Shown here: one piece after another, positions 1 through 3,318 of the stretch | Layout: every line of letters begins with the position of its first letter | How positions within the stretch are numbered: the stretch's first letter is position 1 | IMG/VR virus record: IMGVR_UViG_3300048921_000452 | Span: 1 to 23,888 of that record | Strand: one strand, 5' to 3' | DNA from: a virus | Length of the DNA: 23,888 bases | The notes under the pieces: model-generated | What the model was told of the DNA's origin: nothing | What the model saw: only the letters and a program-made list of their open reading frames with translations | The model's database searches: none | Made by a program: the position numbers and the translations under genes

Positions 1-257
1 CGGCGCGCCGGCGATGGATCCTCGCCGCGGCGGAGCTGCTGGCGCGCGTCGTCACGCGCCGCGCGCGCCTCCGCCAGCGACAGGTCGGGGAAGCGACCGA
101 AAACGAGAAGCTGCGCCTTGCGATCGCGACGGTACGCCATGCGCCAGGACCGCAGGCCGCTGGGCGCGACGTACAGGAACAGGCCGCCGGCGTCGGCGAT
201 CTTGTAGGGACGCGCGCGCGGCTCGGCCGCGCGGACGCCCGCTGCGGTGAGCGGCAT
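1..257 (-). CDS. int: P4-type tyrosine integrase, N-terminal part (truncated by window edge)
   Basis: The visible 85 codons start at ATG 257, preceded by a TGGAG ribosome binding site 6 nt upstream, and run off the left edge without a stop. The translation begins MPLTAAGVRAAEPRARPYKI and continues with a GGLFLYV motif, a W-R-M-Y core, FGRFPDLSLAEAR and a GEDPSPAR end. This is the N-terminal arm-binding domain (DUF4102) of P4/CP4-type site-specific recombinases, which insert and excise prophages and islands. The catalytic domain (R-H-R-Y) lies outside the window. The gene reads leftward, in the same direction as the tail genes. It could belong to this prophage, giving it a site-specific rather than Mu-like transposition lifestyle, or to a neighbouring element. 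The family is clear. Ownership is not. Confidence 0.85.
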   Translation of the reverse strand, partial: MPLTAAGVRAAEPRARPYKIADAGGLFLYVAPSGLRSWRMAYRRDRKAQLLVFGRFPDLSLAEARAARDDARQQLRRGEDPSPAR

Positions 258-541
258 GGAAATCTCCAAGCAAAGTCGGTAGCGAAGGCGTGCTGCGGCG
301 CGCCGACGGGCGTGATCGAGAGACACGTGATCAGATGGCGTACCGGCGAGCTAATGATGGGCTCGCTACACGTCGGGTGGAGAGGGTTGTCGCCTCTGCG
401 GTGTTCGTTTGCCGTCTCAGGGATCCGGAGCGGGTCGCGGCATCACGGAGAATGAGCGGGCCTTGCCTCTGCAAATACCATCTGGCCGCAGCACCATTGC
501 GCCGGCGGCCCGGTTGAGAGATATTGAGGCGTCATAAACGC

Positions 542-701: not shown

Positions 702-1622
702 CTAGGACCCCGGTCCGAAAGCAGCTTTGAGAGTGCTCCACGCGAGCGCCGCAGCCAGGCTGCAAACGCCGTTACCGGCGCCTCGGGTTCTGTCCATCCG
801 GCTGGCCACCCCATCGCGAGTTCGTAGAACAGCGGGTTGGGCATCAGGGTGGACAGAAAGGAGCTCTTCCCATGCTTGAAGCTCACCCGGACCGGGGGCG
901 AACAAGGGGAGCTTGCTGCGCTCGCAGTCCAGCCCACTGATTTGAGAACTAGCCAGAGGGCTGTCCAGCTCCGCGTCGCTTCGCTCAACGCGAACTGTCC
1001 CCCGCTCCCCTCCGAGATGTCGAGTGGAGAGACAGGAGTGATGTTGCCCTGCCGGATCTCCAGGTCCGGAACATAACCCGCGTCGCTTGCCGTCGGCGTG
1101 GGCCAGGATGAACAGGCGGCGACGCCGGTGACGAGCGCCTGCTTCTCGCGCAGTGAACAGGCCCGCCTTTGGCTCGTAGCCCATTGATCGTAGAGTTCGG
1201 GCGACGTCGGCGTATCCCAAGGACAGGTGTCCCTCGACGTTCTCGAGGAACACCCATTCAGGCTCGACCTCGCCGATGACTCGGGCAACCTCTGGCCACA
1301 GATGGCGTGGATCGTACTCCCCTCTACGGTGACCGGCGTAGCTAAATGGTTGGCAGGGATAACCGGCAGAGAGGACCTGTATGCGGCCGCGCCAAGGGCG
1401 GCCGTCGAAGGATCTGAGATCGTCCCAGATAGGCGCCGGAGCCAGTGCCTTGTCTTCCATCCGCGCCACGAGAGTGGCCGCGGCGTGACTTTCCCGCTCG
1501 ACGTAACAAACAGTTCGGTAGGTGGGCTCTGCGATATGCAGGCCGAGATCGAGTCCGGCATAGCCGGCGCAGAGCGACAAGCCGGTGAGCGACCGGCGTT
1601 CAGCATTGGCACGAAGATCCAC
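702..1622 (-). CDS. C5-cytosine DNA methyltransferase (orphan, Com-linked)
   Basis: This 306-aa enzyme would transfer a methyl group from S-adenosylmethionine to C5 of cytosine in DNA. It has motif I (LSLCAGYAGLDLGL, residues 15-28, AdoMet binding), motif IV with the catalytic cysteine (GYPCQPF, Cys90), motif VI (ENVEG, 127-131), motif VIII (GARHRRRRLFIL, 162-173) and a motif X-like GAGNGVCSLAA (281-291). The target recognition region (about 180-275) is short. The start is GTG at 1622, with a full AAGGAGG at 1636-1630, 7 nt upstream. It overlaps the end of com by 23 bp, so the two are translationally linked. No restriction endonuclease gene is adjacent, so it is probably an orphan phage enzyme that protects virion DNA or mimics host methylation. 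Its specificity cannot be read from the sequence. Confidence 0.93.
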   Translation of the reverse strand: MDLRANAERRSLTGLSLCAGYAGLDLGLHIAEPTYRTVCYVERESHAAATLVARMEDKALAPAPIWDDLRSFDGRPWRGRIQVLSAGYPCQPFSYAGHRRGEYDPRHLWPEVARVIGEVEPEWVFLENVEGHLSLGYADVARTLRSMGYEPKAGLFTAREAGARHRRRRLFILAHADGKRRGLCSGPGDPAGQHHSCLSTRHLGGERGTVRVERSDAELDSPLASSQISGLDCERSKLPLFAPGPGELQAWEELLSVHPDAQPAVLRTRDGVASRMDRTRGAGNGVCSLAAALAWSTLKAAFGPGS

Positions 1623-1791
1623 AATTGAGCCTCCTTGGCGCCGCTCCGCTGGCGGTCGGTGAAGGGCTCAAGGGCCTCAGTGAATTGAGCAGGCGGCAGC
1701 GCCTGCATTTGATTTCAACAATTCCGGAAATGGCGTTCGCAGCTGCCCGGAAGAGCAGAGCCTGGCACCCGCCGCATCTCAACGACTCCAT
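1600..1791 (-). CDS. com: Com-family zinc-finger translational regulator
   Basis: This 63-aa protein begins MESLRCGGCQALLFRA and has the paired CxxC motifs of the Mu Com family (Cys6, Cys9, Cys29, Cys32), followed by a basic segment. In phage Mu, Com is an RNA-binding zinc protein that opens the masked translation start of the downstream DNA-modification gene mom, whose start lies inside com. Here the same layout is kept, but the downstream gene is a C5-cytosine methyltransferase whose GTG start lies 23 bp before the com stop. The C-terminus (NCGSSCQC) has three further cysteines, partly imposed by the overlap with the methyltransferase ribosome binding site and start. ATG 1791 is the chosen start; the ribosome binding site there is weak. 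Family assignment rests on the finger spacing, the LLF motif and the context. Confidence 0.8.
   Translation of the reverse strand: MESLRCGGCQALLFRAAANAISGIVEIKCRRCRLLNSLRPLSPSPTASGAAPRRLNCGSSCQC
1625..1671 (-). promoter_or_regulatory. Possible RNA stem masking the methyltransferase ribosome binding site
   Basis: In the com-methyltransferase transcript, TTGAGCC (1671-1665) is perfectly complementary to GGCTCAA (1631-1625). After a bulged A, CTT (1664-1662) can also pair with AGG/AAG in the Shine-Dalgarno. The stem would cover the AAGGAGG and end 2 nt before the GTG start. This resembles the Mu mom initiation region, which is closed until Com binds. Pairing was read by eye; stability was not computed. 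Confidence 0.4.
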
Positions 1792-1862
1792 AACGATTTG
1801 CTGTCCAAGAGAGTCCCGCCCGAGGCCCGGGTGCGGGACGATGCGGCTGGCCGGCCGCTAGT

Positions 1863-1902
1863 GACGAGTTGACGCTCGTCGGTTGCCGTGTTGACGCACG
1901 GC
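1863..1902 (-). promoter_or_regulatory. Twin stem-loops with identical loop upstream of com
   Basis: Two neighbouring inverted repeats are separated by 4 nt. On the plus strand the first is GACGAG-TTGACG-CTCGTC (1863-1880) and the second GCCGTG-TTGACG-CACGGC (1885-1902). Both have perfect 6-bp stems (the second extends by one T-A pair) and the same 6-nt loop. In the com sense the loop is CGTCAA. Stem bases differ between the copies at two positions, but each change is compensated on the other arm. This favours a conserved RNA structure over a DNA operator. They lie 71 nt before com, in its probable leader. Confidence 0.5.
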
Positions 1903-1959
1903 ACCCCCGCTCGGTTTCGCGTGGCGGTATCACCACGCACGACCAGCTGGGGTGTTCGA

Positions 1960-2949: not shown

Positions 2950-3318
2950 ATGGCGAAGCGCGACGACAGCAAATACAAGATCACCGACCCGGCCGAGATG
3001 CTGGTGAAGCGGCAGCCGGACATCAGCATTCACCCCGGCGTGTTCCTGCGGGAGACGATCCTGCCGCAGTGGGGCTTGAAGAACCTGTCCGACCTGTCCC
3101 GCCGGCTGGGGGTGAACCGGGCGAACCTGCACAACGTGCTGCAGGGCACCGCCGACGTGTCGCGCGACCTCGCCTACAAGCTCGGCGCCTTGCTGCGCGA
3201 CGAGGTCGCTGACTTCCTCATCGCCTACCAGATGAAATGGGACATGGCGCGGGAAGCCGAGAAGCGGGCGGGGTACAGGGAGACGATCGAGCGCGTGCCC
3301 GAGCCGGTGGAGGCGTAG
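2950..3318 (+). CDS. higA: HigA-type antitoxin / XRE-family repressor
   Basis: The 122-aa protein has the HigA signature HPGVFLRETILPQWGL (28-43) followed by a helix-turn-helix of the XRE type (about 44-90: LSDLSRRLGVNRANLHNVLQ, then SRDLAYKLGALL). HigA antitoxins bind their toxin and repress their own promoter. ATG 2950 has GGAGG 8 nt upstream. The N-terminal 25 residues, with KYKITDPAEMLVKRQPD, extend beyond the minimal family. Unlike most higBA pairs it appears to have its own promoter and operator. It is the only DNA-binding regulator in this part of the window and so the best candidate to bind the five repeats. Two small genes follow one base after each other and are probably co-transcribed. 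Confidence 0.88.
   Translation: MAKRDDSKYKITDPAEMLVKRQPDISIHPGVFLRETILPQWGLKNLSDLSRRLGVNRANLHNVLQGTADVSRDLAYKLGALLRDEVADFLIAYQMKWDMAREAEKRAGYRETIERVPEPVEA

Follow-up and report, generated by a model that had tools for sequence, protein, structure and literature searches.

Two adjacent hairpins at positions 1863-1902 of a 23,888-nucleotide stretch of viral DNA (IMG/VR record IMGVR_UViG_3300048921_000452; this whole stretch is hereafter called the window) are two arms, P2 and P3, of a larger five-helix element and do not form a stand-alone unit. We put the probability at roughly two in three that this element is a conserved cis-acting leader RNA with translation-switching helices, placed in front of phage DNA-modification genes. 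The homology, covariation and genomic context of the element are established and it is conserved at the RNA level; transcription of the leader, switching between its states and translational control are inferred from sequence. Judged by Rfam 15 and the literature searched, the element is undescribed; that literature, which lay mostly outside subscription journals, contained no account of a com leader of this kind.

The timing of DNA modification matters to a phage: modification that comes too early may harm the host, and modification that comes too late leaves the phage exposed to restriction. To our knowledge, the com-mom system of phage Mu is the only case in which the RNA side of phage DNA-modification control is understood. 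That a covarying leader accompanies com and also, independently, D12 methyltransferases suggests a wider use of RNA-based control over phage anti-restriction genes. In addition, the leader offers testable base pairs, and its bearers that lack Com allow the direct question of what the RNA responds to.

The twin hairpins and the leader that contains them

On the plus strand, hairpin 1 (1863-1880) reads GACGAG-TTGACG-CTCGTC and hairpin 2 (1885-1902) reads GCCGTG-TTGACG-CACGGC, with the spacer GGTT (1881-1884) between them. Stem positions 2 and 5 differ between the two, each difference being compensated on the opposite arm. The earlier note had described exactly this, namely two hairpins four nucleotides apart with TTGACG in both loops and two mutually offset stem differences; its coordinates and sequences match exactly and the offsets can be seen in the sequence. 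Read on the com strand, the twin becomes GCCGUG-CGUCAA-CACGGC, AACC, GACGAG-CGUCAA-CUCGUC, about 70 nt 5' of the com start, and both hairpins have predicted pair probabilities of 0.93-1.0. Nowhere else in the 23.9-kb window do two perfect 6-bp hairpins at most 60 nt apart share a loop, and a pair with a shared loop of at least 5 nt arose in none of 60 simulated windows (first-order Markov). When two copies of GTTGACGC lying 10-24 nt apart were sought in viral contigs, no neighbouring TTGACG hairpin pair outside the window was present among the matches listed.

The whole structured leader covers about 120 nt (1793-1914, minus strand, like all of its parts) and was delimited by a full-length cmsearch match to positions 1-125 of the covariance model R2 described below. 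Hairpin 2 is its arm P2 (1885-1902) and hairpin 1 its arm P3 (1863-1880), joined by the linker AACC (1881-1884), which is AACC, AGCC or CACC in nearly all homologues. The window fold then places arm P4, GCGGC-CGGCCA-GCCGC, at 1843-1858 and P5ext, GUCCCG...CGGGAC, at 1813-1839, the latter with a pair probability above 0.98 and with the inner P5, CCCG-GGCCU-CGGG, inside it (1819-1831). The long-range helix P1 consists of a 5' strand GCGGGG (1905-1910) and a partner strand UCCCGC (1833-1838) that is also used by P5ext. Finally, the window fold contains P0 (1902-1954), formed by the inverted repeat I4, CACCCCAGCU...AGCGGGGGUG, which encloses a further hairpin at 1919-1940.

Folded on its own, the 186-nt leader adopts the row P0, P2, P3, P4, P5ext (z = -3.2 relative to dinucleotide-shuffled sequences). 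The opposite strand folds nearly as well (z = -2.9) because the stems are palindromic, so the strand cannot be chosen from folding energy alone. At the gathering threshold, Rfam 15 returned no family in the window and only tRNAs in 45 related loci; at a relaxed threshold, the window gave chance-level matches only, none of them on the element. A tRNA-like identity for the cloverleaf described below was considered and rejected, ARAGORN having predicted no tRNA anywhere in the window.

Homologues, covariation and gene context

Relatives were gathered by using the Com protein, a Com alignment and the methyltransferase as queries. This gave about 160 com loci, 139 of which have distinct leaders; they lie in viral contigs and in genomes that are mainly alphaproteobacterial. 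The com leaders sort into sequence classes, the class of the window comprising L167, L170, L182, L193, L244, L250, L263, L265, L267 and L272, and the order within the aligned classes is G-rich strand, P2, P3, P4, C-rich strand, P5 and start codon. Leaders of the rhizobial class, e.g. L291:2854-2999, are very conserved, with GUUUGGCGAC/GAUUGGCGUC in P3 and UGACUGAGUCGUGAG 5' of the start codon.

Our conclusions are based on R2, a covariance model trained on 12 com leaders of another class with the window excluded. Searched with filters off, the window matched R2 over its full length at 1914-1793 on the minus strand (31.8 bits, E 9.2e-7), the second-best match in the window having an E-value of 0.34, and the P2 and P3 arms of the model coincide exactly with the two hairpins. 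Standard pairs fill 94.4% of cells across 42 distinct matches versus 69.2% after shuffling, double-sided changes occur in all 25 modelled pairs, and the covariation score is 0.608 versus 0.158 after shuffling and at most 0.09 with slid partners, counts that lean towards the structure since the alignment of these 42 homologues (A6) was fitted to it. By helix, 98.1% of cells are paired in P2, 98.6% in P3 and 97.1% in the co-varying P4; P5ext and inner P5 co-vary in homologues as well. When the 12 leaders used for training are aligned by plain MAFFT, without fitting to structure, eight pairs show double changes versus 3.2 after shuffling and at most 2 with slid partners, P3 being invariant in this set.

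The proposal that the twin is an RNA structure in the com leader is thereby upheld: homologues keep both stems through extensive compensatory change, and a model built without the window detects it. The covariation check on related com leaders that had been suggested found double changes in every modelled pair of P2 and P3 (five of five in each, 42 homologues). The idea of a fixed loop fared differently. The stems are kept in homologues and the shared loop is absent from them, the window being the only one of the 42 to carry the same loop in both arms. P3 loops are hypervariable, with 39 kinds among the 42 homologues (1869-1874 in the window) on a stem that is nearly always paired. The most recurrent P2 loops are CGCCAA (8/42) and CGUCAA (5/42), the latter being that of the window (1891-1896) and of P2 in L202, L222, L237 and L296. 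As P3 loops are nearly all different, P2 loops recur and the window holds the sole identical pair, its shared loop looks like a P2-type loop that P3 also carries, either by chance or through local copying, rather than a constant signal for recognition. Two types of P2 loop occur, CNNNAA and its reverse complement UUNNNG; the second often substitutes, and the two types may have arisen through palindrome inversion or reflect isosteric C-A/U-G wobble closure.

Scans of genomes with R2, in which genomes were chosen irrespective of com with the exception of the centre genome, gave matches in 8 of 296 Sphingomonadales genomes and in 10 of 398 genomes phylum-wide. Apart from L329, a marginal match (E 1e-3), every scanned element lies directly 5' of com, of a com remnant (L343) or of a D12-type adenine methyltransferase gene, D12 genes having been assigned by eye from N-terminal sequence and similarity to annotated phage adenine methylases. 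The element is not confined to genomes with Com: in G175, G050, G084, G204 and G471 it precedes a D12 gene in a genome with no PF10122 match, and in G036 the PF10122 match is sub-threshold and carries a stop. Com is therefore not its sole purpose. In L227, L245 and L256, the element sits on the D12 gene and com is found elsewhere in the locus. The element is thus a leader of phage DNA-modification genes, neither a simple com feature nor a universal Com site. The com and methyltransferase genes behind it often have start-region bases in common (AUGGAGUC, AUGAAGGAGUC); as the proteins are unrelated, this sequence likeness suggests that these bases belong to the RNA. The copies directly before D12 genes in the three loci just mentioned are at L227:4171-4294, L245:2056-2173 and L256:4176-4299, and further such copies are in L317, L322, L323, L324, L326, L327, L328 and L340.

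Alternative helices and competing explanations

Alternative pairings were assessed in 38 homologues, relatedness ignored, by comparing strands from the same sequence with strands swapped between homologues. This swap test gave z-scores of -3.6 for P1 (the G-rich strand with its own C-rich strand), -3.3 for P5ext (the C-rich strand with the strand 3' of P5), -6.2 for P0 (an upstream strand with the G-rich strand) and -4.4 for P6 (the segment 3' of P3 with the ribosome-binding region), versus -1.0 and -1.2 for two control pairings. Since P1 excludes both P0 and P5ext, two mutually exclusive states are apparently conserved. In the window fold, the state with P0 and P5ext is favoured over the P1 state by 7.2 kcal/mol, and P2 and P3 form in the window whether P1 or P5ext is forced. 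The P6 of the window is weak (-3.6 kcal/mol) and its com ribosome-binding site is poor, so that the switch is best supported in the relatives.

We propose that phage DNA-modification transcripts begin with this element, which would act in cis as a conserved RNA. Its core would resemble a cloverleaf, in which long-range P1 closes around P2, P3 and P4, followed by P5 and then by the start codon of the first gene, com or a D12 adenine methyltransferase. In the alternative state, the C-rich strand of P1 would form P5ext with the G-rich strand that lies just 5' of the ribosome-binding region, and the G-rich strand of P1 would form P0 with the upstream strand; in many members P6 would link the segment after P3 with the ribosome-binding region. 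Such exclusive pairings could act as a switch on the translation of the first modification gene, letting DNA be modified at the right time or dose. P2 and P3, predicted in both states, may serve as a fixed scaffold or as recognition arms. The candidate trigger would be Com in bearers that have it; in those without Com, it would be the enzyme itself or some other factor. A more far-reaching version, which we regard as speculative and rather unlikely, is that the leaders make up a novel class of ligand- or protein-sensing RNA switches, found in phages from several proteobacterial groups, that responds not to Com but, for example, to the methyltransferase, its cofactor or a late-infection signal.

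The arms P2 and P3 could instead be an autoregulatory site at which Com binds the hexaloops of its own leader, much as Mu Com acts near the mom start. The hairpin that Mu Com recognises there has a loop of 6 nt, in which the first C and a GA near the 3' end are protected (PMC6483171), and a corresponding C-N-N-N-R-A pattern is fitted by the CGUCAA of the window and by 16/42 P2 and 9/42 P3 loops. Many elements also lie directly 5' of com, and by analogy with Mu a role for Com at the element is plausible in bearers that have Com. Many P2 loops are nonetheless of the UUNNNG type, P3 loops are hypervariable, and Com offers no explanation for the D12 loci of the genomes listed above, which bear the element without Com; as an account of the element as a whole, we consider this possible but improbable. 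Perfectly palindromic stems would also suit binding or recombination sites acting in the DNA, their hairpins being strand-symmetric and unrelated to RNA, and the CNNNAA/UUNNNG loop types are what inversion of a palindrome would produce. This explanation strikes us as the most remote, since orientation and distance to the start codon are fixed, long-range P1 and P6 co-vary and involve the ribosome-binding region, and it is the stems that are conserved and not their sequence. Nor do we think it at all likely that these are ordinary terminator or mRNA-stabilising hairpins that end the upstream gene and regulate nothing. The element does sit between an open reading frame (ORF) ending at 1960 and com, and its stems are very GC-rich, but they lack a U-run, a scan for intrinsic terminators found no site on either strand of 1793-1914, and conservation runs to the downstream start codon in unrelated phages whose upstream genes differ.

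Known systems and neighbouring genes

The leader resembles phage Mu com-mom in having RNA structure with hexaloop hairpins beside the start codon of a com-containing DNA-modification module. In Mu, however, the structure (the Com hairpin and the translation-inhibition structure) precedes mom, whereas here a multi-helix leader of about 120 nt precedes com or a D12 gene. A search of phage Mu with R2 found the element absent, and Mu lacks the space for this leader, since the annotated late promoter (35693-35759) extends to the ribosome-binding site of com (35758-35762). Similar features occur 5' of com in transposable phages of Pseudomonas (B3, JD024, UMP151 and PAN70), whose leaders have a GAGGGC/GCCCUC-type closing pair, a hexaloop hairpin, a subsequent hairpin and a stretch complementary to the bases immediately 5' of the start codon, although these leaders are beyond the reach of R2 at a useful E-value and their kinship was judged by eye. 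In L348-L354 (PAN70, Bise, Komp_PAO1_1, UMP151, JD024, B3 and Curvibacter phage TJ1), the com leader at about 1050-1200 is long and structured, with pairing of the GAGGGC/GCCCUC type and a stretch complementary to the bases directly 5' of the com start, the TJ1 leader having the hexaloop CGUCAA; a description of the Pseudomonas phage com leaders was absent from the literature searched. The element shares mutually exclusive helices 5' of a start codon and strong covariation with riboswitches and ribosomal-protein mRNA leaders, but unlike these it has no match in Rfam 15 and no known ligand.

Downstream of the leader, the window encodes com (1600-1791, minus strand), a 63-residue Mu-like Com zinc ribbon protein (PF10122, E 1.8e-7), and a C5 cytosine DNA methyltransferase with a GTG start (702-1622, minus strand; PF00145, E 1.7e-29). 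The ORF at 692-1708 was rejected as the methyltransferase because it is in the wrong frame. The GTG start overlaps the 3' end of com (1600-1622, minus strand), an arrangement likened to the mom-com overlap in Mu that, by this analogy, suggests coupled translation. The stretch upstream of the leader, used as a query that did not take in the ORF at 2196-2459, found no relatives. Mu-like tail genes, e.g. Gp46 and Gp48, are encoded on the same contig. An open frame at the left edge (3-326, minus strand) resembles the N-terminus of a tyrosine integrase, as judged by eye, and the plus strand carries a toxin-antitoxin pair consisting of a HigB-like toxin (2461-2853; phrog_3066, E 4e-15) and an HTH antitoxin (2950-3318; phrog_1381).
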